A DNA stretch of 64,000 bases, from positions 1,426,501-1,490,500 of the forward strand of contig OY979730.1 of NCBI GenBank assembly GCA_963855995.1, written 5' to 3'. The notes under the pieces were generated by a model. The model had not been told where the DNA came from and made no database searches. It saw only the letters and a list, made by a program, of their open reading frames with translations. The position numbers and the translations under genes are program-made. Numbering within the stretch: position 1 is the stretch's first letter; every line of letters begins with the position of its first letter. Origin of the DNA: Muricea muricata (taxonomy: Eukaryota > Cnidaria > Anthozoa > Malacalcyonacea > Plexauridae). Positions 36,824 to 63,790 of the stretch are shown here, one piece after another.

Positions 36824-36826
36824 TAG

Positions 36827-38480: not shown

Positions 38481-38583
38481 GTAATTTATGTACAATTTTA
38501 TGACACTTTGTTAGCCAGCCAATTAATATGGTTTAACAAGTGAAAGTTGGCATTCTTATAATCAGTATTCTATTCTATTGCAG

Positions 38584-40115: not shown

Positions 40116-41929
40116 ATTCATGTACGATCTCCGGCTACTTCAAGGACAGTATTCCACATTGCTACAGTGATTACTTTGTGTCCAATGAGGAAGGTGGTTC
40201 GTATGCCGTAGGATGGGGACCATTACCCGGTGAGAACTCTCGACAGCGTCGCGATATCACTGCGACTCAAACTGAGGCCATGTGGTCACAACACTTGGCT
40301 AACGATAGCAAGGCGAAACATAGGCATAAAAGAGGAGTGGACCCGATTATGAGTTCTGCTAGCGGGAGGAATCGTCGAAAAAAGAAACGTTTACTAGCAA
40401 GTAGTAAGCCTCGAGTTTATACAGTGAACGACAACGCATTGTTGCCAAATGGTAAAATTTTTGGGACCATCAAACCATGATGGATCTTCGAGGATTTCCT
40501 TACTGGGGTACAATCACAATGTACAGCGGCAGTGGTTATGTTGCAAATCTTGGTTATGATCCCGTGACTGCATACACCGTTGTTGCGGACCTGCATTCGA
40601 ACGGCTGGCTTGATGCTCAAACGCGAGCTGTGTTTGTAGAGTTCACCGTATTCAACGCGAATACGAATCTCTTTGGCATTGTTTCATATTTCATAGAGTT
40701 TCCGCCATCGTCAGCTGCCATAACCACCACCCAATATCAAGTCGCCAGATTCTATTTGCTTCTCAATGGAGGGCAAACACTGGCTCATGTCATAGTCATA
40801 TTCTTCATGTTGTATTTCCTGTACAGGGAGGGAAAACTCATCTACAAACAACGTTGGGCTTACTTCAAAGGTTTCTGGAACTGGATTGAAGTGATTCTTG
40901 TCGTCTGTGAGTTTTTGCTGATTATTCTTTTCCTTGCTCGTCTGTATGAAGTCGACAGAAACCTTCTTCAATTACGAGAAAATCCAAACGATTACGTTGG
41001 TTTCCAGTACGCTAGAAATGCGGATGCCCTGATGACCTATGTGCTTGGTGTCCTGGTCTTCTTCTACATATTACGTTTCTTACGTCTGCTGAGATTCAAT
41101 AAGAACTTTCTTGTTATTGGCAAGACATTGTCGAGAATAAGTGCTCCAATTCTTAGTTTTTGTCTTCCATTTATTGCGGGATTTTTAGCATTTGCGTTAC
41201 TGGCATTTGCGATGTTCGGGTCAGAACTGGAAGATTACAGTTCCTTCATGGACAAGGACACTAGTGACTCAATTCAGTATGACTTTAGGAGATTTTGATT
41301 TCGAAGCCATATTCATGGTGAATCCAACCATTGCAACACTGTATTTTTTTTCATTCATTGGACTAAACGTGATGGTGTTATTGAATATGTTTATAGCCAT
41401 TATCAACGATTCGTATGCCGAAATACAAGAAGAAACGGCTGAAATCCAAAACGAACTAGAAATCGTTGATTATGTAACCGAAAAGATTACGCGTGGTTTT
41501 AATAAAACATTCCAGCGTGGTAAAGTAGCTCCGGTTCAAAAAATAACACAAGAAATAAAACACAAACGTAAACCAAATCCAAAAGAAAAACTAACCAACG
41601 TGGAGTCAGACACACACCCGGAGTTGGATCTACGTGTAGAGAAATTGGAGATTCTCCTGAACACTATGGAAAACAGTATTAGAGAGGACAAAAAAGAAAG
41701 GAGACGGTTCCGTTTAGTACCACAGGAGAAGAGACAAGACCTGTTTTTCCGTGTTTTGTGTTTGATGGAAAGCGTTCTCAATGACGATGATGATGATGAT
41801 GATGAGGAGGAGGAGGAGGAGGAAGGTGATAATGGCGAACCTCAAAGGTACGGACCAGGGGAAGAAGATGCGAAAATCAATAATGTTGCACCCAATGTGG
41901 ACGGAAGTGGAACACAGGCTATAGAATGA
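40116..41929 (+). pseudogene. polycystin cation-channel domain and acidic C-terminus
   Basis: The exon begins DSCTISGYFKDSIPHCYSDY and continues through the extracellular domain. Hydrophobic segments include AHVIVIFFMLYFLYREGKLI, WIEVILVVCEFLLIILFLAR, YVLGVLVFFYILRFLRLLRF, LSFCLPFIAGFLAFALLAFA and the last helix LNVMVLLNMFIAIINDSYAE. The pore segment TQFSMTLGDFDF follows a frameshift near 41251-41263; another lies at 40478. The tail has a coiled-coil-like EKLEILLNTMENSI stretch and an acidic D/E run encoded by GAT and GAG repeats. It stops at 41927-41929. It previews the part of the intact gene lying beyond this window. Confidence 0.85.
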
Positions 41930-44311: not shown

Positions 44312-45012
44312 GCGTGTGCTCGAATCCCACTCGGCTGGGCGTAGCGAATGGTCGTATTCAGGATTCACAAGTAACTGCGTCAAGTTATAATAGCGAAGAA
44401 ACAAGAGCCTTTTTTGGACGTCTTGATGGTGTGCCTATAGTAACTCGCACTGAGAGTGCATGGCATGCAAACGTCCGAGACTGGCTTCCGTGGATTCAGG
44501 TTGACTTCTTACGACCTGTGACAATCACTGCAGTTCTCACACAGGGTGACCGAGGCAAATATGTGAAAAAATACAACCTGAAGTACAGTGATGACGGTAG
44601 CACTTGGACAAAATACCACGAGGTATGTCACCTAGCTGAGGATGGTTTTGAAATATGTCGCCTATCTTCGCTATATGGTTGTTTTCACCTTTTGCAAGAC
44701 TTGAATCTCGAAATCCTCAGGAATATTTGCCTGAGAAAAGGAGGCAAAATGATAACGTCGTGATTATAATTGGAGTAGCAAACATGCATCGCAAGTCAAG
44801 TTTTCAAGTCATAAGCAATCTGACGTTCAATGAAAAGGTAATTGAATGTTGTTTTTTCTCGTTGATTTAGATCCTCACCGGCAACGTTGATTCTATTAAT
44901 ACCAAGAAAAATACTCTTTCGGATCCAAAAACTCATCGTTTCTTTCGTATATTGCCAAAAGAATGGTATGGTCGGTGTGTCATGAGAATTGAATTTGTTG
45001 GTTGCATCGAAG
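44312..45012 (+). CDS. exons 1-2: discoidin (F5/8 type C) domain 1
   Basis: Exon 44312-44622 begins at a phase-1 acceptor with GVCSNPTRLGVANGRIQDSQ and includes the typical FGRLDG, WIQVDFLRPVTI and YSDDGSTWTKY segments. Exon 44871-45012 completes the domain with RFFRILPKEWYGRCVMRIEF then VGC. The first and last Cys are the usual disulphide pair of this fold. Discoidin domains bind lipids, glycans or proteins outside the cell; the ligand cannot be read from the sequence. The frame also stays open upstream to ATG 44275, but the good acceptor and the paralogue argue for an earlier first exon. Confidence 0.9.
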
Positions 45013-48000
45013 GTATTATTCGCTTTAGTTTTTTTAGTTTTCTGTTATATTATTACATCAGTCTAGTGTAGTGTGGTGAGATGTGGAAGAGAGTAACATG
45101 GTGTGGTGTAGTGTGGCCTATTGTATGCTATGGTATGGCATAACATGACATCTGTTGTAATGTTTGTATGGTGGTATTGTATTCTACAAGATGGTTTGTT
45201 ATGGTATGGCATGGCATGGCATGGCATGGCATGGCATGGCATGGCATGGCATGGCATGGCATGGCATGGCATGGTATGGTATGGTGTGGTATGGTATGGT
45301 ATGGTATGGTATGGTATGGTATGGTATGGTATGGTATGGTATGGTATGGTATGGTATGGTATGGTATGGTATGGTATGGTATGGTATGGTATGGTATGGT
45401 ATGGTATGGTATGGTATGGTATGGTATGGTATGGTATGGTATGGTATGGTATGGTATGGTGTGTGATATGGTACATGGTTTGGTGTGACGTGGCGTGTTG
45501 TGGCATGGTATCACACGTATTATTTTCCAAACTGAAATCGTAATCGTCACACCGGGAAAGGCACAATCATATTTTAGTATACAACTTCTTATGACTTTTT
45601 TGTTTATATTTTCTCAGGCTGCCGAGACAGCGCACCACTCGGCATGCAGAATGGCCTTATTCATGACGTTCAAATAAATGCGTCGTCAAATGAATCCCAT
45701 TCAACCAGTCCACAACTTGGTAGATTAAATGGCCCGGCTTCCTGGCTTCCTGCTTTTGACGATTCTGACCGATGGTTCCAAGTCGATTTCATTGCCAAAG
45801 TTTTCGTAGATGAGGTACAGACACAAGGACATGGGAGAAGTGATTTCTTTGTACAAACTTACAAACTTCTCTACGGTGACGATGGCTATATATTTACGGA
45901 GTACGGCGAAGACATTAGTGGACCTAAGGTTTGCACATTGATATGTCTTAAGGCTGGACAACAGGATTTTGAAACCGAAATGGACCATTCCCCAATTATA
46001 CAAACTTTTAATTTCGAAAACAATTTTAGCACAGTTGGAAAGAGCTTCCTAAATTTAGTGAAATTGTGAAGTTTGGTTGCAAAATATCATAACATGTGAA
46101 AAATATATAATCCTGTAAAGTTTGTGAGTTTTGTATACTTTTGTATTACGAAATGAAAAGCGTTACATCTATGTGGAAAAGTGGTAACGCTTTTTTCCGC
46201 GTAATACAAAAGTATACAAAATTCGCAAACTTTAAATTACTATATTTTCCACACTTTACAATATTTCACAACCAAGCTTTACAATTTCACTAAATTTAGG
46301 AAGCTCTTTCCAACTGTGCTAAAATTGTTTTCGAATTTAAATGTTCGTATAATTGGGGAATGGTCCATTGCGTCGTAGTCTTGGACTTGCAGTCATGTTG
46401 GATGACCCCACTTGAGTGGCGAATGCCATAAGATTTCTATTAAAACAAGAGGCATAGTTTACGTTTTATAATAAAAGTTTTAAATGCAAAAACGCCCTAA
46501 AAGAGATTTAGTACCACAAATTGTTAAAATAGTTTCTATATCACTTTAACATGCTTCTCGATAGAACTGGAACATGGAAATGATTTTCGTTAGAATACGG
46601 CTATTTCAATAGCTGCACGAGCAGCTTCTGCACTGCAGTCTGGAAACACGAAAATGCCTAGTTGAATGGAGAGTCTTCTTGCTTATAAATCTCTTAAAAA
46701 GACCGTACGTTGGTTCTCTTTGCTAGATCTTTGATGGTAACACAGATACTGCTACAGTTGTTGCGAACAGCATTACAGCAACAGTTGCACGGTATTTTCG
46801 CATAAAACCAGTAACATGTCATCAAAATTGCGGGTTACGGGTTGAATTCATTGGTTGTTATCAGGGTATGTATAATTGCCGTTATGTATTTATGATCGCG
46901 CGCCGTCACCCGTACCATGCATTATCACATTATCATCATCCTCATACTGATTATCATTATTATCATCATCATTGATTATCAGTGTCACTAACATTGTTTG
47001 GTATAAGTTTCTCCAGACGGATTGTTTTTACAATCCGATATTCACAATAAAATGCATTTTTGGTTTCAGATTGTGCTTCCCCAGGAGCTCTTGGTTTAGA
47101 GAATGGTAATTTTAAAGTCTTGGCGTCTTCTTCCTCTCCGGGTTATCTTAAGGAATACGGTCGTCTGAACTATAATGACAGTGGCTTATATGGTGGATGG
47201 TTGCACTCTAACACAGATGTCGACCCGTGGTTTGGAGTTAATTTCATGAAAGATGTATTGATTAGTGGTGTTGCCACGCAAGGAGGTGTTCAGGATAGCA
47301 CTGTGTGGATGACGACATTTGAAATGTCTTATACTGTGGATGGAGTCAACTTTGCGTTTTATAAGTTTGCTGGCACGTGGAAGGTACAAAAAATATTAAT
47401 GAAGATAATAAAGAGTTAATAAATAAGGGTTAAGGGAAGACAAGCTCTTTACTTGTTGGAACGGTGCGGGTTAAGTTTGATTATATCTGATAATGTCCTT
47501 TCTTATTTCTTGGCCTAACCTTCTTGCATCTTTTGGAGCTGCTATTTTACCATTAATTTATACAGGCAAAAATATACTAGAATCACCTCATCCGTTTTAA
47601 CCCAGTAAAATATTTGTATCCAGCAAATTATTAGGATTGTTACGGATAGGCCGTTGAGGGTTGGGTGGACTTTATTTTATATGCGTGAAATTACAATTCT
47701 AACAAGTTGTCAGAATTTTTAAAGGTAACCAATAATTTTATTGGCTTACAACGTGAGGATCGTTTGCTAGCTAGAACCACTGGCATCCCAGCGCACGTTA
47801 CGTCATTGCATACATTATTATATAAATACCCTAAGGCTGGCAACTCTTTTGCAGTAATAAACTGACACACGTTAGACTTTCGCATCAAGCAAACCAAATA
47901 GCACAAGTTACTGCAAAAAAACTAGATACAAATGATCTTGGATATCTCTTCTACATTTCTAGATAGTTTTTGGACGAGAACAAGATTCGAAAATACGTAA

Positions 48001-51000
48001 ATTTGTTCAATAAAAAGTGTTTTTGATCGAAATTTTCCGTGTAGATAGACGGGATGTAAAGTGCCCCACAAACGTCATCTTCGGAAATGACTTCGGCAGT
48101 GGCGGATCTAGGGTAAGTCAAAATAAATTATAGCAGCTCAATTTTAAATTCAAAATAACTTTATAACACTGTCATAGGTTATGAATTTCAAAAGAATAAA
48201 ATCTAACCAATGAAGTTGCTTTGAAGGTATTTTAAAATGTAAATATATCCTAGAGTGAGCTGTGGTAATTTATTTTGACTTACGCTAGATCCGCCACTGG
48301 ACTTCGGCTAAGCTGCTATTGGCTGATGAGCACTCGGAAACGTCGAAGAAAAGACGAATTCAATAGCAGCCAATAGGAACTTAGATTTTCTCAGCCGAAG
48401 TCGTTTCCGAGGATGACGTTTGTAGGGCACTTTGCATCCCGACTATCTACACGGAAAATTTCGATCAAAAACACTTTTTTTTGAACAAATTTACGTATTT
48501 TCGAATCTTGTTTTTGTCTTGTTTTGGGATGGACATTAGCCGAATTTGTCTATTCTACAACTGTCTATTCATAAATGAAATCTGGAGTGAATGGCAATAT
48601 ATGCGAGCACCTACCGAGCAATTACGATACATACGTAATTGTTCGTTTTAAATGAAAAAGCTTAACACAAATAATTTGGGTCAAAGTAGGCCCCTCAATA
48701 CGCATTAACTTTCTTTATCTATGCTGTTTTAGGTTTTTGTGGCCAACTACGATCACAGTTCGGTTGTCAAGCACAATTTGCCATCAACCGTTTATGCCCG
48801 AGAAATCAAAATTCATCCTAAGACATGCAATTCGAACTGTGTTATGAGAGCGGAGATTTACGGCTGTTTGGACGGTAGGCTTCTTGCTTATGTTAGTGTA
48901 GTGATTTGATTGCTGGGGTCGGTCGCTCCAAAGGTGTTTAGCGTGACCGGTGGATAAGTGGAAAATAAAAAAAAAAGTTTGTACATTACATGAACAAACC
49001 AGCTAAAGTTAAATAACCTAAGCTGAACAATTATACATATTAAAATAAAAGTACTTATTCCATTAAGCTGATAATTTTACTTAGAAGGTTACTTAGAAGA
49101 TGTAAAAGTGATCTCTAAATTTGACTTATCCACCGATTAAGCTAAGCTCCTTTGATACAACTGACCCATGATTGTTGTAAGTATTATGGCGACGTTAATA
49201 CTTTTTGATAGTGATGATGGTTCTGGTGATGGTGATGGGCGAGCCTGGGAGCTTGAGAGTTCATTATCGTCAACACCATTATTACGATTATCTTCATCAT
49301 CATCATCTTCATTATCATGATTATCATCATCATTCCAATGACCCAATCATCATCATTCCAATGACCCAGTCATCATCACTATTATAATCCTGTTCAACTT
49401 CAATGTTATTATTATCATTATAATTTCACTATCAATCATCATCATGCTGTCATCATTACTATTATAATTATGATCATTATCGATCATTATCATCATCCTG
49501 CTCGATGTTATTGTTGTAACATTATCGTGTTATTCATTTTTAGATCTTGATAACTGCGCATCAGTCACGTGCCAAAACGACGGTACTTGCAATGATTTAT
49601 GGGATTCCTTCAAGTGCGACTGTCCATCTGGTTATCTGGGAGGTCTATGTGATCTAGGTATGTGGTGTGTCCGTTTAAATTTCTCACACGGGAAGACCGT
49701 CATCTTAAATTAAAAAATGAATAAAGAGAACGAAATATCCTATCTTTCGAAAATTTTCCAAAATTATAGAGTTTTTTTATCACGCAATTTCTTGAGACAA
49801 TTTCAAAATTTGGTGTTGGTTCAAGTCCTTTCAATATGTTTTTAATATTTCATCTAGATTGCTCAGATGTAATCAGCTACCTACCTATAGTATAACCACT
49901 TATTCAAAAATAGTTTTATCATTTCTCAATCTTTCTTTTTCTTTACAGTTGTGACTACACCACCTCTAAATGCAACTACACCACCTCTCAATCCAACTAC
50001 CCCTTTAACAACTCAAAATAATGTCGGAACAAGCCAAGGCAATATTAATACTGGTCCAGGAGCTACAACCGATCCTTTACTGGGAACATCCCCAACGAAC
50101 GTGAATGATAGTGATGATAGTTATAGTGGTAGTGGTAGTGGTAGTGGTAGTGGTAGTGGTAGTGGTAGTGGTAGTGGTAGTGGTAGTGGTAGTGGTAGTG
50201 GTAGTGGTAGTGGTAGTGGTAGTGGTAGTGGTAGTGGTAGTGGTAGTGGTGATGATGATGGTTATAGTGGTGGTGGTGATGATGATGGTTTTGGTGGTGG
50301 TGGTGAGGATGGTTTTGGTGGTGGTGGTGATGATGGTTTTGGTGGTGGTGGTGATGATGGTTTTGGTGGTGGTGGTGATGATGGTTTTGGTGGTGGTGGT
50401 GATGATGGTTTTGGTGATGATAATAGTTATAGTGGTGATGGTGATGATGATGGTTATGGTGGTGGCGGTGGTGGTGATCCGGTGACTGGTCCAGGTGCCA
50501 CGGCCACTCCTTTATCGAATACAACCAAAACCAGCGTGAATACTGTTCCAACTATTCCAGTTATGACAGGTTCAGTGGGAATAAACGGTTCAAATCCGGT
50601 TCCTACCAATTCCGCATCGACAACACCAAGTCATACTTCGATTGCGGGCTTTTCGTTAAACCCGATTTCAGCTCAGAAATTTGGTGAAAGTTTTTTAGTT
50701 GGCTGGACAATGACCGCTGGCACGAATGTTACAGTACTTGTAGCATATAATGGTATCCCATGTTGCAATGCAGGGCCGTTTAACAATACGGGTGGTCAGT
50801 GTGATTGCTTAATATCGGATCCAAATCTTTTTGACCCAGATGGCGTGGTGAACGTTAGTGTCATCGCTTCAAACCCAGTTTCCAGTACCCCCGCATACAT
50901 CGAAGTCGAAGTGTTAAAATTCATCACTCAGGCGTCGTTTACAATGTTGACAAGTTACTCGGACTTTGGGACTGGAGTCGAAGGACGTGGGAGCCAGCGA

Positions 51001-54000
51001 AACATTTTTCCAGCGGAGCATCCTGTAAAATTTAATTGTTCGAACACAGGTAGGTTTATCGTACACGATCTGGCGGGAAATTATGAATGATATCTTGCGC
51101 AAATAGGTTACCATTTCCACGAAATTCTTCTCGAGAAACTGTTTATATGAAGTAGGGATAGGACAGGAAAGTAGAAGTGAGAGGATAGAAAAAATCATTG
51201 ATATCCAACCAGCCGTATTTCGCACATTAAAGAGTCCCTCTGGAATATTCACCACACATGCCCCAAAGTTGCTTAACTTAATTTGATCACCATCATAATT
51301 ATTATTATCATTAACAGGCGGCCCTGCCACCACAGTGTCGTGGATGTTTGATTGTGACGTTGATGGAACCATTACTGAATCAAAGTTCTCCTTTGATAAA
51401 ATCTTTCCAAGTCAAGCCAATCAAAGTTGTCAAATAACTTTGGGATTACAAAACAATATCAATTCAACGTTTGCATATGGTAGCATACAGCTGAAAGAGA
51501 GCGTTATTCTCAACAGCACGACGAACAATGGTCCTGTCAAAGAAAACCAGACCATCACATTCACAATTTCATTACAAAAACTAGGCATCCAAACTTGTTT
51601 GTGGGTTGACTTAGGAGACAATAGTTCGCTTTATCTGTTTGGAGATGCTTCTTGTCCAGGTAAAATCGATGTTTCTCGGATTAACCCATATATCCTGTCA
51701 GACCCGCCTTTCACATTCTCTCTCAGAAGTTCCAACACTCATAAGATTGTCATCGATCACGTTTATCCAGCTGTTGGTTCTTATAACGTCAAAATGAACG
51801 CGTCAAATGATGTTTCCATGGTAGCAGAAGAAATTGTCGTTGTTGTTTTGCCTTATACATGTCGTAACCCAAACGTGACAATAACAGGTTGGTGTTTTTT
51901 TTACTTGACACTTTCCGGAAAACAATAGAACGAGAATAAAATGGGTCTTCATTTTCTTGGGCGTTAGAGAAAATGATTGTGTTATTGTTAGTCTAGTTAC
52001 AGGTGTTAAAACCTTTGGTGGGGACCTCGTGCCCTATTGTTTGTTCGCCTAGTGTAGTATATGTACATGTTCTATACTAAATTTTTAGAATAAAATAAAT
52101 AAAATGAAATGATAATTGTTCTTTCATCTCATGTTTACATTTGTTTATAAATACTTTAATGAACCATCACTTCATTATTTTGGTCACTATTTTCTTCTAC
52201 AATGTTCGCCAAATAATTTCCGTCTTACTTTTTCACTTGTAAGGTTTATCTCCGCATCCAACAAACGTCTTAAATGCGACTCAAATCTACCGCTCCGTAC
52301 CCATAGCTTTAACCGCGGAAGATGAAATATTTTGCGAAAACACAGAGAAGGCAAAAACGAAATGGACTGTATTTAAACTCGATGATGATCCACGCGTTTT
52401 TACAACAGTTCCTGTTTCTAGCTTAAGAAAAACAGCGTATCGGACGGATATTTTTGGCTTGGATCTTTTACTTCCCGGGAAAGAATTACCGTATGGCTTC
52501 TACGAGATTACTGCTCGAGTGGAAATGAAAGGTTTACCTGATGTGTTTGGAACTGATTCCATTTACATCCAAGTGGTCCAGACTCCTTGGCTTAAAGCTG
52601 CCGTAGTTGGCGGGTCTTATTATAGTGCGCCGTTTGGATTGACTGTAAGTTATTCGGGGTGATAATTGTAGCAGACTTCAGGAAGGCTAGATATCCTTAA
52701 ATGCCGCCGGAAATAATTTCTCAACCTTTGGAATATTCACTGCACATTGTAAAAAATAAAAATACGTTTTGTATGATAACGTAAAATGCGGAAAACATTT
52801 TATGGGTTGATCAGCAATTTTGAATGAAATTTATTTGGTTTGATGTAAAACTGAATTTGAGAAAATTGAAAAACCTTTACCGAACTCAAAAAAATTATCA
52901 TCTAGTCGATTCAACACCTTAAAAAACTTTTCCAAATATGATATCTTTCGGAAATCAGTATACTTCAGCTTCTTTTTATGGGTACTTCTACCTTTTTTAA
53001 CGCCAGGGAGTTTTGGATTCCTCAGCGTCATCCAATCCAGATTTTCCTGGCACAGATGGGATGAGTTTTGTTTGGTACTGCAGAGATGCTGATGATAATG
53101 AATTGCCCTTCCATGTTACTCACGAACCACTTGTGTCCCCCAATCATCAGAATGCTACATTTCTTACAAATAAGGTAAGCAAGCCATCGAAGATGAGGTA
53201 AGCAGGCCACGTAAAAAATTAGCTAGTGTTTATAGACTTTTAATATTGTATAATGTAAACATTGACGCCACTGTCTGGGCCAGCGTCACAAAATGTATGT
53301 ATGTGTGTAGGTACGTATGTATGTATCGAAGCCGCCTTTTCGTAAATCCACAGGTTTTCCAGTAGGTTTAATACATTTAATTACATAACTAAATTGATTA
53401 AACACATTTGATTTGGTAAATATGTAAAATATACATTTGGTTGTTTGGGCAGACATTAAATTTAGTCCACCTAATTGGTTAGAGACATTGAGCACACCTG
53501 GTTGGTTAGTGATGCGAATGGAATATTGCTAGTGAGAAGTCCGAATCAACACGAATCAGTCCAAATAGAAAAACGAAGCTGCGCAAATTTTTCGACTTAC
53601 TATGCTGTTAAAACACTAGGCATCGGGTCAATTTTTCTTTATTGCATCTTTGTTTTAGTCTGGTTATAGATGGGACTGTGGTGCTTCATTGTATATCACG
53701 ATTTTTTTCAGTCTAGTGGATGTTTTGGAAGTGGACGGGGACGCATAAACACTGCGAATTCTACACTTCAACTGAACACGAACATGATGGTGGAGGAAAG
53801 AACGTATGTGACATTTATTTCTTACTCCCTCATTTTCAGTCGAATTTCATGTAGTAACTAAAATAGCTTTTATATTGCGGTCAACACCTGTATCGTAGAT
53901 TAAGGAAACATAGATGGGTAACTCCGGATATTTCGCATATGATTTCGCTGTCTCACGGACTACGTCGTATCCACACGCATTTCTGGCAAGTACATTTGTT

Positions 54001-57000
54001 CGAATTTCAATATAAATGTATTATAGAAGAATGGTCTCTGCCGTTTTATAAGCCACCAGGACAAAAACATAACTTCATTTGTTGCTTGAAATATACAGGG
54101 CAACTTCTTTCTATATGTTTCTGTGAACCAAGGCAATCTAATGGCAAGTTTTCTCAAAATAACCGTTTATTTGACATTTCCCTAGTATGTAATTCTTTAT
54201 AAACTCTCACATGTGTACTTGCCAGAAATGAGCGTGCGTATGACGTACCCAAGCCATCCACGTAAGACAAGAAATACCCCGAGGTGCACATCTATGTATC
54301 CTTAATCTGTGCCTGTAGTGTTCTGTTCGGTAAAAAGATCTCTTCCATGAGAATTGCAATTTTAACACTCTGGTAATTCAGGAAAATGGATATAAATTGG
54401 GGCAAGCCATATGATGTTCAGAAAATTAATTGTTTTGACACCCCTAATTTACATTAGGAACCAAGCCACGTTACGTCATTTATCAATTATTGGATGAGAT
54501 CGAGCAAAATATCGTGAGTTGTCGGTGGCGAGAAAATCAATGATTTGCCGATGCCGAAGGCGGAGGCAAATAATTGATCTGCGAGCCATCGAAAACTCAC
54601 GATATTTTGCGAAAAGCAAGTTCAATAATTGTATATCATTTTCTTACGTAGTTTATTATATGACTTTATAACTAGGAACACAGGAACGAATGCTCTGCAA
54701 AACGAGCAGCCATTGTTTTGCAAAATTGAAAGCAATGCGTATGCTCAGAGTGTTATTTGTAGCTGAACAATATTTTTAACAAATGGGAATACTCAGAGTG
54801 TTGTGTGTACACAGTTATTTTCAGGTAAATTAACCAATCAGAATTGAGAAACCAATGCTTCTAAATAGACTGCTAATGTCATTGGTTTTCAGTTATGTCA
54901 TTCTGCTCGTGGTATCCATGACTCATCCAGAATTTGGTCTACGTCAGGGTAACACAACAATATTCTTTCATGTGAGCAAAGGTGTCCCACCAACGTTCGC
55001 ACCTAGGTAACTTGATTTACAGTATATTTGATATGTTGTCATTGTTGTTTGATATTTTATCTTTGTTCACTGCTCTTGTTATTTTGAAGTATTAAAAGTA
55101 AACAATAATGCGGTGGCAATTAGTTAACAATAACTAATTCCAGCGAATCTCAAACGAGCTGAGTCCATTCGGCCACATGGACTTTGTGCTGCGTGTGCCT
55201 TACGATTGTCCCTTTAAATGACTAATAGGGCAGTTACTCTCACCTTGATCTTAATTCTCCCACATCTTGAGAGCCCTTACCGAAAGGAATCAGGCTTTGA
55301 CATCCATTTGTATCTCATTTGCCTGACTTTGCATGACTTATTAAACAATTTTACATTCTTTCATTGCACAGCTGCGTCAAAAACTGTCAGTCGAAAACGA
55401 TTGCGAATGAGAAAATTGTCTTACAATCGAACTGCGAGGCCTATTGCGCGGGCGAGTTGAAGTTCTCCTGGTCATTATATCTCTTTGACAACATCAACAC
55501 TCCTGAACCTCTGAATTTATCATCACTATACGAAATTCCTCAGCAAGAGTTCCAAAACATGGTGTACAACCCAACCAATGAGTTGTTTCTTGCAATCAAA
55601 CCTAATGTGTTACAATGTAACCAGAAGTATATTATTGCGTTTCAAACTGAAAGACCAAATGACGTATTAGGAGAACAAAGGATGACTCTGCTCGTGAATT
55701 CGCCGCCAACTGGTGGTAAGTATGCTTGCCTGAAATAGCTATCTAATCTAACCATGGCTATCTGTCATTCCATTCATTTATCTATCACGCCATTCGTCCA
55801 TTTAGTTGTTTATCCACCTAACGTTGCATTTTTTCCTCTGGCTATCCACCACTCTACCAACCGTACCAGCTGGTGTGGTGTTGTAGTTACCACGTCTGTT
55901 TTCCAAGCTGGGAGGCCAGGGTTTAAGCCATCGCTAGGTATCTTTCTACATAAGGGGCTTTTCCTCTGATTTTCCCGCTTTTTCTCGGATTTTCGCCTGG
56001 TAAGTGAATCCGCTCACCCAAGAGAACACAACAAATCAATGCAACCATCCGTCCGTTCGCCCATTCATTCATCCATTCACTCTCTATTTATCCACCATTA
56101 TTTGATTCAATTAGCTATTCGTGTCTCCATCTATTCGTCCCTTCATTCTATCAATTTGCCCATTGAATGTTCCATCCATTACTGAGCACTACTACGATGG
56201 GTACAGTTGCGCTACCAACGTCCTCTTTTCCCTTTTTACAAAGGTAATATAATTCTATTCTATTTGATTTATTTGCCTACAGGGTCTTGTAGTATCTCGC
56301 CATTATCAGGCGTTGCTCTCTCAACCAACTTTACCTTCAATTGTGAAGGATGGAACGATCCTGACTCTCCTTTAACATACGAATTCTCGTACGGAAATAA
56401 TGGAAGTGAGGCGTTGTTCTACTATCGTAAACTTGCTTCTGGCACCACCATCAGACACACTAATTGGTTATCAGCTGGAGAAGAAAGTAGCAATTATACT
56501 TACGTTGTTACAATAAAAATTAAAGATTCATTTGGATCTAGCTCAAAGGAAGAATTTTTGGTGCAGGTAAGTGAACGGTTTCTGCGATTTATAGTATTCA
56601 ATCTAAACATTAAGAATGTCATGACTTTTTTGTAGTGTTTTCGTTACTAACAATAGTAAATAGGCATACGGAGCATCTAAATTTAACCTTTTTAAATAAA
56701 AAGTCAGAGTAGGCATTTAATTTCTCAAGGTTCTTCCACTGCCGTCAAACGAACTAAATGCAACCAAGCTAAGCGAATTAGTTGCGGAGTATCTGGAAAA
56801 TGGTGACCCTGCGGCAGCTCTTGGGCTGGCTTCTAGCTTGAGCTCTTCATTGAATGCTCAAGAGTCTAGTAGTGGCAACCAGATGATTCAAGGAGAGAAG
56901 ACACCAGAGCAGGTATAGATCAACACTTTCTTTCTTGGTTGATTTTCTACCAACTTTCTCTTGACTTCATGTATAATAATCTTTAGTATTTGTTTAAATT

Positions 57001-60000
57001 CAACTTTTTTATCAATTAATTTTTACATTACTTTCAACTTTAACAGCGTTAGAGATAGACTAACAACGCAAATATTTTTGGTTATGTAATCATTTTCCAA
57101 CGGTATTTTTACACTCCTCAGATACGAGAAGAAATGCTCATCGTTTTATCTGGTGTAAAACTGCAAGGTACATCTGCTACCGTGCAGGTCAGCAGCACAT
57201 TCGCTCAAATCGTAGGACGACCAGAACAGCTTACGACAAAAGCACAGGTATTTACACGTGTTTGACTAACAGCCGAGTTGTATAAAGTCGACTGCTCTGG
57301 GTTTCAAATCGAGGGTTTATCGAATATCAAGAATCAGGAAATAATGATGTCGAGGATAAAGATGCTTTGGCATAACATTTTATGCTGTAGTTATTAATTG
57401 ATCACTATTATAATTTTATTGTCAGGATACAGCCATCGCAGTGATTGAAAAAGTCGTAAAAAGGCTACAGAACTTATCAAAAGACGACGAAAGGTTTACG
57501 AATATCAAGTCCGGAGTTACGAATGTTCTTAGAATGCTGGGTAATATGAACAGCGGAAGTTCAACTAAAGATCCCGTATCATTGCCTGAAAATAATACGG
57601 CTGTACGTGCTCTTATTTACCTTTATTCCTCCACATCTCCTTAAAATTAGCAACATGTACCATTATTTATGCATAGCTATGTTGTTCTTCAGGCTCGCGC
57701 TGAACGTATTTTTAACATTCTGGAGCAACTACAAAATATTTTGCTGGAATATTTGGTTGCCAGCGAAGGATCCAAAAGCATTACGACCGAGACTCTCTCG
57801 ATCATGGCTGAAAAAGTCGTTGCAAGTCGTATCGGAGAAAAAGAAAACAAACTAAAGAAATGTCGCTTTAAACCTCCATTCGGTGCTGCGTTTGGACTTG
57901 AAGAAAGTAAGTTGTGGCACTCTGTTAAACATTGTTTTTTTTCTATAGATAAAGGGGGAAATGTCAGACCGTTTTAGCATCTGCGAATTTTCCATGAAAC
58001 GTTAAAATAAGGTGAATGTGTGGTGTGGTCAGGTGAGGTAAAGGTGCGGTGCGGTGTGGTGCGGTGAGGTGAGGTAAATTGAATTGAAGGTGTGGTGTGG
58101 TGTGGTGTGGTGTGGTGTGGTGTGGTGTGGTGTGGTGTGGTGTGGTGTGGTGTGGTGTGGTGTGGTGTGGTGTGGTGTGGTGTGGTGTGGTGTGGTGTGG
58201 TGTGGTGTGGTGTGGTGTGGTGTGGTGTGGTGTGGTGTGGTGTGGTGTGGTGTGGTGAGGTGAGTTAAAGGTAAGATGAAGGTGATGGGAGAGTGGGGGT
58301 AAGCTTTTATGAGGTGTCGTGAGGTGGGGGTGATGTGATGTGAGGCGAGGCACAACCTGGTGTGCTGTGGAGCAACATATTAAGGGTGATGGGGTACAAC
58401 GTGGGGAAGTATATAACGGTGCGACGTGTTGAGCTGAGTTAAGGGGTATGTGGTGTTAAGGCAATCAGTAATGTGATGCGATGTGTGTGGCGTGTTTTGT
58501 TGTTGTGATGAACATTGTGCGATGTGTCTTATTTCTCATGAATCATTTTTATTGTAATTTGCAGTTCTTTCAAATCCGAATAAAACATTCCTTCAAATGC
58601 AGCCAGTTGACATCAAGGTATGGATCTCAGTTTGATCATAATAATTTACAAACAGCTTCAGTTGTAGTCATGTGTATTAAAAAGATGATTCAGTGTATCA
58701 AAATCTTAAAAACAACGTCAATGTTACTTGTGGTATTGAAGTTAAAAGCACGCGAATGAATGAGAATGTTTGATTGCTAGAACGATGAATATAGAGCTTG
58801 GACTAGACGTGAATCAACTGGTATTTCGACTCCTCGGATCGTACAGAGAGACGGTCTTGATCGAAGTCTCAGCTTTGACTTTTTGTGTGAATGTCTTTCA
58901 TCACGGGCAGATAGTGCACCAGAGACGTCCTCTAAGTTACGTTTTTGTACATCTGAATGTATCATTGTTTGTATAATTGACTCATGCGTTTCGTTTTCAG
59001 TTGGCATTATTTGACAAGAATCCATTCAGTTGGAACAACTCGAGTCAAAATGTCACCTCTAACGTGATTGACATTGTAGTCGAGTCAAAACGACTGAACA
59101 TCTCTACGTCCAACCTTACCGAAGATATTGTCGTTACTATATCTCGTGATCCATCACAGTTTAACGGAGTTGGTACCTCTTTTTACATGAAGCCAGACGA
59201 AATGAATTCCACCACTAACAAAAAGGATTACATAAAATTCCATTGCTTCACACGACGAAGTAACTACACAGGAATGAATTTCGAAATTGAACCAGAGGAC
59301 GTTGGCTTACATTTGAATGTAAGTGATCTCATGAAGCGTTAATAATTTTGAACGCCCAAATGTAGGAAGATATAATGCAGAAGTGTGATATCTAAAACAC
59401 CACACTTTTTTTCTTCCTTTTCAAGTTGGGTCCAATAAAGGTGGTGTAGAGGAAGTGAGAGGGGGGGATTTCATCGTTGTCATAATACCAAATGTTTGCC
59501 ATTACACTAATTGTAGCTCTTTCAACATAACATTTGTGCCATACGTTTGCCTAAGGTGTGAGCTACTAATGTGTTTATGGTTGCTAGCATAGATATTTCA
59601 TATACACTAAATGATGCATTCCACACTATGGGCAGGCGAAATTTGAAGCCGGATCGCAGGCGCTGGTCGTTCCCACAGAGTTGACACGGAGCATGATAAT
59701 TTGTGTATTTTGAATTGTGGAAATGGACAAAGTTGATACTAAGTCCTCTTTTATGCAGTTAAAAAGTATTTAATACAAATGCAGAAAAGTATAATGTTTT
59801 CTGCAGGATTTTTTTGATGAGTAGGAACGACCAATATTGCCGCCGTCTATTGTTATGAGGGGATACCGCTGAGATTTTTGGCTTTTTCTTCTCTTCACTT
59901 TTTATACACAAATGCGCTATCTAGTGTATATGAGATGTCTATGGTTGCTAGTCCTTTTGCTAGTGCTGTAGCTATCTACAGAAAAAATATTCACGTGCAA

Positions 60001-63000
60001 CAACGTAATTATCTTGGAGCCATTCTGAGTTCCAGAACTTCAGGAAAAACATAACCTCTATGTATAATTAATGAGCCAATAAATTATAATATATTTGTCT
60101 GTGGGGACATTTTCGTGTTATTTCGTTCTTCACGGAAGATCACTATATATTGAGAGTAGATATTCAATTGGAAAAGAGCAGTTTGAATGGATTATCCCAA
60201 TAAACAAACATGTATGACATACTAATATTTTTGATATCTTTTATATCTTGTTCCATGCGTTTATATATCAGGTATACTTGAAGAAAGGCGGCAAGCCCAA
60301 TCCAAATACAGAAGATTACGATTTCTTGTACAAGCTTCCAGACTTTATTACTTGCAAGGTCGGCAACGACACGGTTCATGTGTCGGATTCACAGTCACAT
60401 GACGCTAAAACCCTGCACATTGATCCGAAGAATTGTGCAAAAGACCCATACACGGTCTTCGTGTCAAATCTTGACTTTAACGGCCACGGGGAGTACTGTT
60501 TCGGTGAGCTTTTTTATCTCTTGAAATAAGAGACATTTTTTTTGAAATATAATAGATTTATATAGATATAGATATAATATAATGGATATAAACCTCACCC
60601 TCGGGAGGTTTGTGAAATTCCACAAACCTCCCTCGTCTTTCGGGGACATTTAATCACTAATTTCCCTCATATCATGGTATTACTTATAATAATATCCTTG
60701 AAGCCCAAGGAAAACTAGGAAATATCGTTGTAGAAGTATCATGTTTGTTCAAATTTAAAATTTTCTGTCAGAAAGCAATGATATTTCACCTAAAAATTTC
60801 CAAAACTTGTTTCAATCTATATTTTATTCTTATTTCAGGTGTTCACCATGTTGAACAATTCCACAATAAGACTTACCCGGATCCCAAGTCAACCTTCAGT
60901 TCTCGTAACCGACGCTCAGTTTCCTGTGAAGTTGGAGAAAGGCGTGTTCGACGTTCTTGTGTCATCATCCCCCCTGCCCCACCCAAACCTACTGAGCGCC
61001 CCTCCGGGATTCTTAAGATCCTAGTAGCAGACAATCTTGGTTTTGATGGCAAATATTTCTACCCCAATCAAACTCCGAACTATAATCTGACTATGTATGA
61101 ATCTAGCTGTATCTTCTGGGATGTTCTGAATGAAACGTGGAGAGGGGAGGGATGTAGAGTAAGTATGCCTGTCTGAATGTACATAGTAGCGCTTCAAAAT
61201 CCTTCTTTTCTTCTTGCTTTTTACGCAAGTTAAAGTTGCACACATCAATTAAAATTGGATACGTAGTTGAGATACGTAGTTGATAAAAGCCTGCTCGTCA
61301 AATTCTGACACAACGTTCGAGTGTTAAACTACAGCTTCTGTCGCGAAATGCCGCCCCAAAATGCGATTTTAAAATACGATTTTTTCCCCGTCCAGGTCGC
61401 TGTAGGCACAAACAGAGAACAAATCCTCTGTTACTGTAACCATTTGACGTCGTTTGGAAGTGATCTTCTCGTCGCACCAAATCCAATTGACTTTGATTCA
61501 GTTTTCAGTAATTTCGGAAGTCTTGCTGAAAATGTTGCCGTGCTAGCTTTGATATCAACCATTCTTGGAGTGTACATCATTGGAGTTATCTGGGCCAGGC
61601 GAGCTGATAAGAGAGACTTGTTAATGGTGAGTTAATGTATCAGTAGTGAAGCAAGCCCGACATTTGGTCATGAAAATGCAAATTTTTCTGTGTTTTTGAC
61701 CGTATAAGAAATTCTAATTAATCGTCTAAGAATTTCTAAAGAAATGAATAATGATAAAGTTTAAATTTGCATAGCATGACCAAGTTGTCGGGCTGGCTTC
61801 GCTTCTGTAATGTATCATGTCTTCATTGACTTTGCTTTGCCTTCCTTTTGCACAGTACCATGCTTATACTTTATCCTAACATAATTCCACTGACTGCATA
61901 CCGTAGCAAAAACAGCATAAAAGTAGGTTATTTAACAATTTGTTATTAATTTTAACAGATTGGTCCAACCATCCTTCAAGAACCAACAGGAGACTACTAC
62001 TATCTCGTCACCACCGCTACAGGCAGTCGACAAGGAGCAGGAACAACAGCTAAGGTTGTGTTTACAATGACAGGAGATAACAATCAAACCATACCAGTGT
62101 GGCTACATGACGAGGACCGACCATGTTTCCGAAGAGGACAAACCAATTCCTTTGTCATCGGATATTCTCAGAGCATCGGCGATCTAAGCTACGTTCAAGT
62201 ATGGCATAACAACGGAGGTAAAATGCATGGTCAATCCAGTGAACGTTTTATATAACTTGAACGATCACCTGTCCGATAGTTTAAAACTTGATAAATGCTG
62301 TGCCTTTCCATGTTTGTTGTATTTTTATGAGTGTCCTACGAGTGTAGATATATCTTAATTCAATTAAATTCAGTGTGATTTACTGATTTGATTTTTATTT
62401 GATTTGAAACCGCCATCTTGGCTTCACCCAAATATAAGGTTCGGCCTTTTATGCGGTGTTATCGCTCTCGTCGCTGTTATCGCTCTATACATAGATATAC
62501 TCAACTCAAAAACCTCAAGCAAATTCATCAATTTAGATTCAGCCACGGTCAATAAATAATTATCTTTTCCGCAGGTTCTTCACCCTCTTGGTATCTCAGT
62601 CGATTTACGGTAAAAGATCTTCAGACTGGTAAAACATGGAAACTCATTTGTAAGAACTGGTTAGCTGTGGAATCCAAGGATGGAAAAGTATGTCGAATAC
62701 TACCGGTAGCCAACGAAGAAGAATTGACAAATTTTAATCACGTTTTCTCCAAGAAAGCTTTAAAAGGTCTCGCAGATGGCCATATATGGTTCTCCATTGT
62801 CTCCAGACCTCCCACTAGTAATTTCACGCGCGTACAACGTCTCTCATGCGCTCTGTGTCTGCTTTGTTGTACGATGATCACGAGCGCAATGTTTTATAAC
62901 ATGGGAGGTCAAGGTCCTAGTCCTTTTGCAGTCCACATTGGGTCATTAGTTATTGATCTAAAACCGTTTGTCATTGGCTTACAGAGCAGCATCATTATTA

Positions 63001-63790
63001 TACCCGTCAATGTGTTGATTGTGCAAATTTTCCGCAATCTTCGACCAAAGAATGAAAAGTCAAAGGAAGAAGTCTCCGAGGAAACGAACAAGGGGGATGC
63101 CGATAAGGGAGTTCAAATCGAAAACCAGAAAGCTATCAAAGAAAAGCTGCCCTACTGTTTCATCTATGTAGCGTTTGCAATTTGTTACCTCGCATCGGCA
63201 GCTTCAATATTTTTCACTTTACTCTACAGCATCCAATGGGGAAAGGAGACTTCAACTGAATGGGTCATTGCTATGGTAACGTCATTCCTCCAATCAGCGT
63301 TACTTCTTCAGCCAATCAAACTAGTTTTTGCCGCACTTGTGTTTGCATTGTGTATGAAGAAAGCAAAAGACGCAGAGGAAGAGGAGCATGACGAAGAATT
63401 AGTGATTAAAACTTCTAGTCCAAGGCAGCAATTGACTGCAGATAACTTGGCTGAGCTGGAAAAAACAATGAAGCTAAAGCTACGGAAAAGCTATTACAGG
63501 TAATTACATATAAATACTTGGGTTTAACTATTGTAAATTTTTTAATACTTGATTTTACTTTACTTTTCTGCAGACCACCAGATCCATCCACATTGCAAGA
63601 AGCAAGAAAGAAACGTCTAAAAGAGCTCAAGTCGAATGCAGCTTTAAAAGAGATTTTTGCTTTCTTTGTTTTCCTTATCTTACTGATGGATGTAGCACAA
63701 TATCACAGGACCCCAGACACATTTCTGATGACAAAAACTTTGTATGAAACTTTCGAAGAAGTAGACGCGTATGGACTTGACCTAACTGCT
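44312..63790 (+). CDS. polycystin-1-like discoidin receptor-channel, partial at both ends
   Basis: Twenty-seven exons: 44312-44622, 44871-45012, 45618-45928, 46727-46865, 47070-47383, 48733-48874, 49544-49657, 49949-51049, 51318-51887, 52244-52644, 53007-53174, 53712-53803, 54893-55006, 55372-55715, 56283-56566, 56730-56912, 57122-57247, 57426-57602, 57693-57906, 58565-58617, 59001-59318, 60272-60503, 60839-61158, 61396-61626, 61959-62217, 62575-63499, 63574-63790. They sum to 7,802 bp, have GT-AG borders, consistent phases and no stop. Domain order is 3 discoidin, EGF, low-complexity stalk, PKD/Ig-like, REJ, GAIN-GPS, TM1, PLAT, TM bundle. In the known family the ectodomain binds ligand and may be cleaved at the GPS, and the C-terminal part forms a TRPP-type cation channel with a polycystin-2 partner. 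The signal-peptide exon and the channel half are not seen. Ligand and cell type are unknown. Confidence 0.9.
45201..45460 (+). repeat. composite (ATGGC)n-(ATGGT)n array in intron 2
   Basis: About 13 units of ATGGC (45206-45270) are followed by about 38 units of ATGGT (45271-45460) with one GTGGT variant. Degenerate relatives flank both sides (45060-45200 and 45461-45515). The open frames of up to 167 codons on both strands are artefacts of the five-base period. Confidence 0.95.
45618..46865 (+). CDS. exons 3-4: discoidin domain 2
   Basis: Exon 45618-45928 reads GCRDSAPLGMQNGLIHDVQI and RWFQVDFIAKVFVDEVQTQG, ending at a weaker donor (GTTTGC). Exon 46727-46865 reads ARYFRIKPVTCHQNCGLRVE then FIGC. 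The 311 bp length of its first exon equals that of domain 1, and the intron positions and phases are identical. The intron between the halves contains a large foldback element (45979-46369). Confidence 0.9.
45979..46369. mobile_element. foldback element in intron 3
   Basis: The left arm 45979-46166 starts AATGGACCATTCCCCAATTA. The right arm 46184-46369 is its inverted copy, ending TAATTGGGGAATGGTCCATT. The arms differ by scattered substitutions and the loop is only about 17 bp. This is a long palindromic, non-coding element; no clear target-site duplication is seen. Its left arm begins about 50 bp after the exon 3 donor. Confidence 0.85.
46920..46985. repeat. (ATC)n-like trinucleotide patch
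   Basis: Interrupted ATCATTATCATC units in intron 4. A larger patch of the same type is at 49205-49500. Confidence 0.7.
47070..48874 (+). CDS. exons 5-6: discoidin domain 3
   Basis: Exon 47070-47383 reads DCASPGALGLENGNFKVLAS and PWFGVNFMKDVLISGVATQG. Exon 48733-48874 reads AREIKIHPKTCNSNCVMRAE then IYGC. The same split as domains 1 and 2 shows tandem domain duplication. The internal intron carries a MITE (47584-47766) and a nested pair of inverted-repeat elements (47975-48520). Confidence 0.9.
47584..47766. mobile_element. second copy of the 31721-31914 MITE
   Basis: Shared words in order: CAGCAAATTATTAGGATTGT (copy 1 CAATAAATTATTGGGATTGT), TTTATATGCGTGAAAT, and AATTTTATTGGCTTACAACG with GATCG at the end. 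The first ten terminal bases are eroded. It sits in the intron splitting discoidin domain 3. Confidence 0.65.
47975..48520. mobile_element. outer long-inverted-repeat element, interrupted
   Basis: The left arm (about 47975-48096) reads CAAGATTCGAAAATACGTAA ... GATCGAAATTTTCCGTGTAG ... CAAACGTCATC. The right arm (about 48385-48520) is the inverted copy. A MITE with its duplication (48089-48307) is inserted in the left arm's inner end. An inner GCTGCTATTGGCTG palindrome (48308-48384) forms the centre. Confidence 0.8.
48097..48299. mobile_element. hAT-type MITE nested in the outer element
   Basis: Ends CAGTGGCGGATCTAGGGTAA and the inverted TTACGCTAGATCCGCCACTG form long terminal inverted repeats (about 43 bp each). 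A perfect 8-bp target-site duplication GACTTCGG lies at 48089-48096 and 48300-48307. An 8-bp duplication and CAG..CTG ends are standard for hAT elements. At 203 bp with no open frame it is non-autonomous. Confidence 0.9.
49205..49500. repeat. ATC/ATT trinucleotide-rich intron tract
   Basis: Dense CATCATCATC and ATTATC words in intron 6 with a small tandem CATCATTCCAATGACCCA(A/G)T repeated twice near 49325-49372. Confidence 0.7.
49544..49657 (+). CDS. exon 7: EGF-like domain
   Basis: One 114-bp exon with phase-1 introns on both sides encodes DLDNCASVTCQNDGTCNDLW followed by the last three Cys (C-x-C-x8-C). The six Cys have EGF spacing. It lacks a complete calcium-binding consensus: DLDNC is present, but the hydroxylation-site Asn/aromatic pattern is unclear. 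Extracellular spacer or ligand-contact module. Confidence 0.9.
   Translation: MLITAHQSRAKTTVLAMIYGIPSSATVHLVIWEVYVI
49949..51049 (+). CDS. exon 8: mucin-like, Ser-Gly and Asp-Gly stalk plus Ig-like segment
   Basis: This 1,101-bp exon, symmetrical in phase 1, starts with Thr/Pro repeats (VVTTPPLNATTPPLNPTTPL). Next comes an acidic DSDDSY, 21 Ser-Gly dipeptides encoded by AGTGGT hexamers (50125-50250), DDDGYSGGG, then repeated DDGFGGGG units to about 50480. A Thr/Pro linker follows, then a beta-rich segment with GESFLVGWTMTAGTNVTVLV and a C-C-C cluster. Ser-Gly flanked by acidic residues is the classic setting for glycosaminoglycan attachment, so this may be a chondroitin or heparan sulphate carrying stalk; that is inference. 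The antisense His-rich and Val-rich frames over the repeat are artefacts. Confidence 0.85.
50125..50250 (+). repeat. (AGTGGT)21 coding hexamer repeat
   Basis: Twenty-one perfect AGTGGT units encode 21 Ser-Gly dipeptides in exon 8. The purity at the third codon position (always AGT GGT) indicates recent slippage, so length is probably polymorphic. Confidence 0.95.
51318..51887 (+). CDS. exon 9: PKD/Ig-like beta-sandwich region
   Basis: The exon encodes TVSWMFDCDVDGTITESKFS, many N-glycosylation sequons (NST, NQT, NSS), and CLWVDLGDNSSLYLFGD followed by HVYPAVGSYNVKMNASNDVS. The last stretch, with WVDLGDNSS, HVYPAVGSYNV and ASNDV, fits the PKD domain pattern (GDG, YxxxGxYxVxVxxxN). PKD domains are force-resistant extracellular spacers. 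Symmetrical phase 1 introns. Confidence 0.8.
52244..56566 (+). CDS. exons 10-15: REJ (receptor for egg jelly) module
   Basis: Exons 52244-52644, 53007-53174, 53712-53803, 54893-55006, 55372-55715 and 56283-56566. Key REJ features are LDSSASSNPDF and FVWYCRD (exon 11), GCFGSGRG then STLQLNTNMM and ERTYVILLV across the exon 12-13 border, C-NC and LQSNCEAYC with FSWSLY (exon 14), and GVALSTNFTFNCEGWNDPDS plus LTYEFSYG (exon 15). The module joins the stalk to the GAIN domain in polycystin-1 and sea-urchin REJ proteins. Intron phases here are 0, 0, 2, 2 and 1, unlike the 1-1 modules upstream. Confidence 0.85.
54481..54633. mobile_element. hairpin element in intron 12
   Basis: TATCAATTATTGGATGAGAT ... 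GCAAAATATCGTGAGTT on the left pairs with AACTCACGATATTTTGC ... CAATAATTGTATA on the right, and the inner part (GATTTGCC, GGCAAAT) is also palindromic. Almost the whole 153 bp can fold on itself. Confidence 0.75.
55866..56030 (+). repeat. tRNA-derived SINE-like fragment in intron 14
   Basis: GGTGTTGTAGTTACCACG resembles box A and D-arm, and GGGTTTAAGCC (55919-55929) resembles box B, with a plausible anticodon arm (GTCTGTTTTCCAAGC) between. A pyrimidine-rich unrelated tail follows. Box spacing fits a tRNA-derived SINE head; the fold is too damaged for a tRNA gene. Confidence 0.5.
56031..56175. repeat. CATTCATC-type degenerate tetranucleotide tract
   Basis: Repeated CCATTCATTCATCCATTCAC-like words in intron 14. 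Low-complexity only. Confidence 0.6.
56730..58617 (+). CDS. exons 16-20: helical part leading into GAIN
   Basis: Exons 56730-56912, 57122-57247, 57426-57602, 57693-57906 and 58565-58617. The protein is helix-rich: KLSELVAEYLENGDPAAALG, then ATVQVSSTFAQIVG, VIEKVVKRLQNLSKDDERF and RIFNILEQLQNILLEYLVAS, ending in LSNPNKTFLQMQPVDIK. Position and composition match the alpha-helical half of a GAIN domain. Five small exons, mostly phase 0, are well supported by GT-AG borders and frame. The last intron (57907-58564) holds a (TGTGG)n array. Confidence 0.8.
58010..58270 (+). repeat. (TGTGG)n pentanucleotide array in intron 19
   Basis: About 33 perfect TGTGG units (58091-58255) flanked by degenerate GGTGAGG/GTGCGG units on both sides. 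The minus-strand HTTPH frames of 108-129 codons are artefacts. The transcript strand is G-rich with GG spaced every 3 bases. Confidence 0.95.
59001..60503 (+). CDS. exons 21-22: GAIN domain, beta part
   Basis: Exon 59001-59318 reads LALFDKNPFSWNNSSQNVTS and ISTSNLTEDIVVTISRDP. Exon 60272-60503 reads VYLKKGGKPNPNTEDYDFLY and ends NGHGEYCFG. Several N-glycosylation sequons fit an extracellular fold. In adhesion GPCRs and polycystin-1, GAIN holds the cleaved GPS strand in place. The intron between the exons (59319-60271) shows no recognised element. Confidence 0.8.
60839..61626 (+). CDS. exons 23-24: GPS cleavage site and first TM helix
   Basis: Exon 60839-61158 (GVHHVEQFHNKTYPDPKSTF) carries two basic motifs, RNRR (60904-60915) and RRVRR (60939-60953), a PPAPPKPTERP linker and the GPS start CIFWDVLNETWRGEGCR. 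Exon 61396-61626 completes it with CYCNHLTSFGSDL; the expected cut is between Leu 61444-61446 and Thr 61447-61449. A helix AVLALISTILGVYIIGVIW followed by ARRADKR is the first membrane segment. All GPS Cys and Trp residues and HLT are intact, so autoproteolysis is likely. The basic motifs could add proprotein-convertase cleavage; that is inference. Confidence 0.9.
61633..61815. mobile_element. hAT-type MITE next to the exon 24 donor
   Basis: The element 61641-61807 starts CAGTAGTGAAGCAAGCCCGA and ends with the inverted GTCGGGCTGGCTTCGCTTCT plus G. A perfect 8-bp duplication TAATGTAT lies at 61633-61640 and 61808-61815. The insertion begins 14 bp after the exon border, leaving GTGAGT intact. 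The pseudogene lacks it. Confidence 0.9.
61959..63790 (+). CDS. exons 25-27: PLAT domain and transmembrane bundle
   Basis: PLAT begins in exon 61959-62217 (YYYLVTTATGSRQGAGTTAK, WHNNGG) and ends in exon 62575-63499 (SSPSWYLSRFTVKDLQTGKT, WLAVES). Membrane segments follow: LSCALCLLCCTMITSAMFYN, IGLQSSIIIIPVNVLIVQIF, YCFIYVAFAICYLASAASIF, and WVIAMVTSFLQSALLLQPIK running into VFAALVFAL. Exon 63574-63790 adds ALKEIFAFFVFLILLMDVAQ then LYETFEEVD, the start of the extracellular channel domain, and ends at a GTAAGT donor. PLAT is a cytoplasmic lipid/protein-binding module in this family. The charged linker KNEKSKEEVSEETNKGDADK is shorter than in the pseudogene. The gene continues beyond the window. 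Confidence 0.9.

Follow-up and report, generated by a model that had tools for sequence, protein, structure and literature searches.

A predicted polycystin-1-family receptor with a discoidin head and its related loci in an octocoral genome

Results

A discoidin-polycystin gene of 31 exons

The window is the whole stretch of DNA that was analyzed, 64,000 nucleotides of the 453 Mb Muricea muricata assembly (C15:1426501-1490500), and "window gene" refers to the discoidin-polycystin gene that it carries on its + strand, whose model has every splice inferred from sequence. Between 44312 and 63790, all 27 drawn exons are preceded by AG and followed by GT (27/27), and when one base is supplied for the split first codon, the joined exons give 2,601 codons with zero stops, which bears out the coherent 27-exon frame claimed in a sequence-only reading of this DNA. 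The same reading had taken 44312-63790 as the gene interval; its exons are confirmed, but the gene is longer, with likely leader exons on the 5′ side and two exons past the window on the 3′ side. The full model comprises 31 exons encoding 3,260 aa and runs from 42744 to the window-equivalent position 66017. A coding start at 44312 was rejected, as this position lies mid-codon after an AG with leader exons upstream. Also rejected was an exon start at 53659, after which a stop would follow; the frame stays open with the acceptor at 53710-53711, and exon 14 is present in the neighboring paralog.

At the 5′ end, exon 1 (42744-42782), with its ATG at 42744 or 42765, is the putative start of a likely signal peptide, and exon 2 (43940-43976) would supply the remainder. 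Exon 1 lies in a block shared with the neighboring paralog (42275-42827; 70% identical, with gaps, to the region upstream of that gene), where the paralog carries ATA at the position of the first candidate ATG and a leader that is otherwise similar. Exon 2 has AG/GT borders and a phase that fits exon 3, and this 37-base exon also occurs in the paralog. Spliced in phase, the two exons predict a hydrophobic leader, MQGTAYNMLAVFLFLLLSTRVEFSKG, ahead of discoidin 1. At the 3′ end, the two exons beyond the window (64008-64173 and 64279-66017 in window numbering, with the TAA stop at 66015-66017) encode Polycystin_dom (1.4e-43) and PKD_channel (2.1e-49), as matched in Pfam.

Domain order of the window protein

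The Pfam search that the sequence-only reading had proposed was run on the spliced protein with the exons past position 64000 included, and it matched F5/8C, EGF, PKD, REJ, GPS, PLAT, Polycystin_dom, and PKD_channel. The head consists of three F5_F8_type_C stretches (3.3e-61, Pfam-A; PF00754), with discoidin 1 in exons 3-4 (44312-45012), discoidin 2 in exons 5-6 (45618-46865), and discoidin 3 in exons 7-8 (47070-48874), the last of which was also found by our own profile at 47072-47365 and by a match to a CASPR2 discoidin. Exon 9 encodes one EGF domain (49544-49657; PF00008, 6e-6), so that the three discoidins and single EGF of the earlier reading are confirmed. Near the ends of discoidins 2 and 3, in exons 6 and 8 (46727-46865 and 48733-48874), are the cysteine pairs CHQNC and CNSNC, whose counterparts in the paralog are CHQLC and CKISC.

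Exon 10 (49949-51049) encodes a Thr/Ser-rich linker, the Ser-Gly run, acidic Gly-rich repeats, and a conserved ectodomain module, and is followed by a PKD domain in exon 11 (51318-51887; PF00801, 1.8e-11) and by a REJ domain in exons 12-17 plus the first part of exon 18 (52244-56912; PF02010, 2.1e-64, covering profile positions 5-450 of 452). Exons 18-26 (56730-61626) encode a GAIN-like region, the GPS (PF01825, 4e-9), and, near their end, the first TM segment; the label "GAIN-like" is inferred from position, as GAIN itself had no Pfam match in the window protein. The GPS cleavage motif CxCxHL/T is present as CYCNHLTSF, with the Thr codon at 61447, and cleavage is predicted. The first part of PLAT lies in exon 27 (61959-62217; PF01477, 4.2e-19) and runs into exon 28; exons 28-29 (62575-63790) complete PLAT and add hydrophobic segments and the first portion of the channel, after which the gene continues past the window. 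The hydrophobic segment 2129-2147 sits just before PLAT, which places PLAT directly after the first TM.

The REJ domain is described as the defining feature of the polycystin-1 (PKD1/REJ) family (PMC1934368, in the excerpt available). In addition to REJ, the window protein has the other features of this family: a GPS with its cleavage motif before TM1, PLAT after TM1, Polycystin_dom, and PKD_channel. A simple hydropathy scan gave 15 partly overlapping peaks, the family feature being 11 TM segments. No WSC domain, the mark of cnidarian WSC-type polycystin-1 proteins, was matched in the Pfam scan of the window protein. The in-phase frame and the Pfam domains together support the claim that a polycystin-1-type receptor carries discoidin and EGF domains in one gene.

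When compared with known channels, the C-terminal 699 residues scored 263 bits with PKD2L1, at most 242 with PKD2, 144 with PKD1L3, and 82 with PKD1, and both the filter and S6 of the window channel align with PKD2L1. This closer match to PKD2-type chains may only reflect slower change and is in itself no demonstration of conduction. The filter reads LGDFD in the window gene, in the two other C15 members of the group described below, in one C2 member, and in a broken copy; it reads LGDFV in the other C2 member.

A group of related loci with varying heads

A search with the channel part found six loci: three on C15 (window gene included), one at C5:9.826M, and two on C2. Channel identity of the five other loci to the window gene is 72-94% over nearly the whole query; other long channel matches in the genome are at 27-34%, and short pieces are at 21-51%. 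The ectodomain module of exon 10 was found at the same six loci only (seven matches, two of them on C5). The sequence-only reading had called the architecture unusual; the architecture stands, but it is not a one-off, as the six loci and a broken copy form one similarity group, a grouping that rests on identities rather than on a tree.

At five of the six loci, discoidins were found on the strand of the body and upstream of it, from 3 to about 11 per locus. Counts were made on the + strand of the stretches read, using a profile built from the three discoidins of the window gene and joining intron-split matches, and gave 3 in the window gene, 6 in the downstream paralog (C15:1496000-1527600), 8 at C15:1.77-1.81M, 11-12 in the stretch read at C2:45.72-45.79M, and 9-10 in the stretch read at C2:46.12-46.19M. 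Because the two C2 stretches end amid further upstream same-strand discoidins, their counts are neither totals nor proof of single genes. Dense same-strand discoidin clusters (C2:45.69-45.79M and C2:45.97-46.19M) lead into these two group members and are possibly very long heads or further genes. At the sixth locus (C5:9.83-9.85M), there was no discoidin among the up to 150 scored candidates listed. In the downstream paralog, the six discoidins are accompanied by a linker of (GGGDSSH)8 and by three or more EGF motifs. Discoidin pieces of the three more distant paralogs are about 27-55% identical to the window gene.

The broken copy lies upstream of the window gene on the + strand (35515-41779 in the window; C15:1.467M), where tblastn pieces comprise one discoidin exon followed by GPS-region, PLAT, and channel exons. 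Pieces of one and the same exon fall into different reading frames, there is one TGA in the discoidin piece, and the channel pieces are 94% and 90% identical to the window gene. Its discoidin exon runs directly into the GPS-region exon; the discoidin at 35.5 kb was accordingly rejected as part of the window gene, since it leads into this copy. The HL/T motif of the GPS is present in 5/5 unbroken copies, and the broken copy has HLK.

Elsewhere in the assembly, WSC matches occur on the same strand near four other PKD1-like loci (C9:0.87M, C14:3.97M, C2:70.12M, and C5:18.21M), and at C5:18.21M, a discoidin match lies ~1.4 kb before the WSC. Two REJ matches on C11 (C11:8835777 and C11:8992634) have nearly equal scores and one TGA each; there was no PKD_channel among the matches listed for C11, and the pair is possibly a set of duplicated remnants. 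PKD_channel pieces at C3:19.67M mark a PKD2-like candidate. On the mitochondrial contig, 19,292 bases long, one frame encodes a mutS that includes an HNH domain (Pfam: MutS_V 2.7e-33, HNH 5.6e-6), and ARAGORN found one tRNA, tRNA-Met. A mitochondrial mutS marks octocorals, and this one points to such a source.

Selection against the neighboring paralog

Every one of the 29 exons tested (exons 3-31 of the window gene) is matched in the downstream paralog (29/29), and their order is kept. dN/dS was calculated exon by exon, with exons 1-2 left out as too short and exon 10 restricted to 188 of its 366 codons because the stalk could not be aligned. By segment, it was 0.46, 0.45, and 0.48 in discoidins 1, 2, and 3, 0.12 in EGF, 0.44 in exon 10 (188/366 codons), 0.25 in exon 11, 0.35 in REJ, 0.30 in GAIN, 0.30 in TM1-PLAT, 0.37 in TM2-6, and 0.24 in TOP-channel. 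With 29 colinear exons and values below 0.5 in 11/11 segments (0.12-0.48), the gene model is unlikely to have arisen by chance. The window gene is very probably one polycystin-1-family gene with a discoidin head.

The highest segment dN values were those of discoidin 1 (0.235) and discoidin 2 (0.154), with other segments at 0.019-0.099. Rapid change does not extend to the entire head, since discoidin 3 (0.070) resembles the body, and dN is likewise high in GAIN-region exons 20 and 21 (0.210 and 0.174). Single exons in which dN slightly exceeds dS are exon 7 (0.044 versus 0.037) and exon 20 (0.210 versus 0.183). dS itself spans 0.064 (TM1-PLAT) to 0.506 (discoidin 1), a spread that may reflect gene conversion in the body.

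The Ser-Gly run and its counterparts

The run described in the sequence-only reading is present: a perfect hexanucleotide array, (AGTGGT)21, with 100% repeat matches at 50125-50250 encodes exactly 21 Ser-Gly dipeptides and is followed by a 24-base repeat array (50241-50470) encoding acidic, Gly-rich Gly/Asp/Phe repeats. This coding array shares its repeat-rich setting with long intronic microsatellites of the same gene, (ATGGT)n and a GGTGT-type array (45191-45473 and 58018-58264). At the stalk site, the nearest paralog has eight GGGDSSH repeats instead of Ser-Gly. Neither a Ser-Gly nor a Gly-Asp run was found in three other paralogs, in the corresponding exon and the stretch leading to it from the last EGF motif. 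A Ser-Gly attachment region is therefore kept in none of the four paralogs read, and since the stalk differs in this way, the repeat is a fast-changing insertion rather than a conserved glycosaminoglycan site.

Discussion

Our preferred reading of the window protein, which draws on homology with other polycystins and which we consider about evenly balanced between right and wrong, is that it combines receptor and channel: the head would bind a ligand and the channel would conduct, and sensory cells or cnidocytes would be the place of action. Four other accounts compete with it. That the discoidin-EGF exons encode a separate secreted lectin and exons 10-31 a polycystin alone, as separate genes or alternative ends, is very improbable. 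Exon 9 can be read into its intron, where a short tail ends in a stop (ORF 49474-49710), so an alternative end is possible; however, the join between EGF and exon 10 is in phase, at each of the five loci read the discoidins lie ahead of the body in the same orientation, the close paralog retains exons 3-31 in order with both halves, and leader exons precede discoidin 1 in the window gene and that paralog alike. A membrane proteoglycan, in which glycosaminoglycan chains on the (Ser-Gly)21 run would anchor the receptor to mucus or matrix, is an unlikely account. Runs similar to this one carry chains in vertebrate serglycin, the run is flanked by acidic residues, and the counted stalk segment of 123 residues has 61 Gly, 26 Ser, and 25 Asp/Glu. 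Against it are the perfection of the hexanucleotide array, the other long microsatellites in introns of the gene, and the GGGDSSH repeats or missing run in the paralogs; with the run replaced or missing there, the group as a whole shares no proteoglycan role. The glycosaminoglycan stalk that the sequence-only reading had proposed finds no support as a general claim. Most likely, the run is a repeat-expanded, flexible, acidic spacer, and it may still bear sugar chains in the window protein alone.

Discoidins are common among matrix proteins, and the GPS-cleaved N-terminal part might be shed into mesoglea or skeleton matrix, making the protein a supplier of extracellular matrix. A REJ protein of Acropora digitifera is found in the skeletal proteome, with N-terminal release proposed (PMC4890752, as excerpted), and in Acroporidae, the skeletal matrix is reported to have recruited polycystin-like proteins (PMC7902050, as excerpted). 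We nonetheless judge a matrix role to be quite unlikely, as conservation across the group is higher in the PLAT-TM-channel part than in the discoidins, an argument for selection on transduction. A role in gamete recognition, in which the discoidin head would bind the egg coat in the manner of sea urchin REJ proteins, could appeal to the family-defining REJ domain, to SpREJ1 and 3, which are thought to be active in the acrosome reaction (PMC1934368, excerpt), and to the faster divergence of discoidins 1 and 2 relative to the body. Set against these points, polycystin 1 of Nematostella is a hair-cell gene (PMC8846589, excerpt), and we regard a gamete role as decidedly unlikely.

If the receptor-channel reading is correct, the window protein would unite a large receptor of the cell surface and a cation channel in one molecule. 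Its discoidin head would bind an extracellular glycan, lipid, or protein ligand; the chain would be cut at the GPS yet remain attached; binding or pull on the head would be transmitted via the GAIN region and the TOP domain; and a Ca2+-permeable pore would open, alone or with another polycystin. Alignment with neuropilin-2 gives no hint of a ligand, as a loop tyrosine there, a pocket residue, is paired with Glu in discoidin 2. Cnidocytes or ciliated sensory cells would be the site of sensing. In Nematostella, hair cells express polycystin 1, and the polycystin-related Hydra genes that change with symbiosis are mostly nematocyte-expressed (PMC8846589 and PMC7859245, both as excerpted).

Since the membrane parts are similar across the group and the heads vary, its members probably sense different ligands. 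A broader and more tentative proposal, which we think likelier to fail than to hold, is that this group is an octocoral repertoire of ligand- or touch-gated polycystin channels, in which one strongly conserved channel is joined to fast-changing, lectin-like discoidin arrays built by duplication, and which cnidocytes or ciliated cells would use to distinguish prey, self and non-self, or symbionts. We know of no firm molecular candidates for receptors in the chemical priming of cnidocyte discharge, in octocoral allorecognition, or in symbiont contact, and varying lectin-like heads on one kept polycystin channel offer testable candidates for them. The polycystin-1 body would then serve as a platform whose sensor heads can be exchanged, discoidin heads being an addition to the WSC type described in other anthozoans.

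PKD2-type proteins are without a receptor body, unlike the window protein, and neuropilin and factor V/VIII have a different body. The TOP domain and channel of PKD2L1, PKD2, and PKD1L3 (Protein Data Bank entries 6du8, 9dli/5mke, and 7d7e) align with the window protein through LGDFD and S6. The best matches to the head are the b1/b2 discoidins of neuropilin and the C1/C2 discoidins of factor V/VIII (Protein Data Bank entry 4qdr and others; 1.5e-40); in the alignment shown, the neuropilin-2 chain is without the first of the CHQNC/CNSNC cysteine pairs, whereas the window protein has both. Among anthozoans, polycystin 1 of Nematostella vectensis likewise has PKD and REJ modules, PLAT, TOP, and a channel-like TM block, but its head is WSC, with no discoidin named in the excerpt available (PMC8846589). 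The REJ skeletal protein of Acropora digitifera shares PKD, REJ, GPS, PLAT, and a multi-pass body with the window protein but also differs from it in having a WSC head; the word "discoidin" has zero occurrences in the text of that source (PMC4890752). In the sea urchin SpREJ1-10 and human PKD1 family, as in the window gene, REJ, GPS, and PLAT after TM1 are found in many members of a multigene family with variable N-terminal modules, and the head modules mentioned for them comprise C-type lectin, EGF, SUEL, WSC, and a stretch rich in Ser, with discoidin unnamed in the excerpt (PMC1934368).

A discoidin-headed polycystin-1 is described nowhere in the literature searched, which lay mostly outside subscription papers and is no proof of absence; PMC8260672 mentions polycystin-1 and discoidin in its reference list only. 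Sequence databases may well contain predicted proteins with this architecture that have gone unnoticed. The polycystin-1 body with variable heads is known, and the discoidin head on it is, within the literature searched, apparently new.
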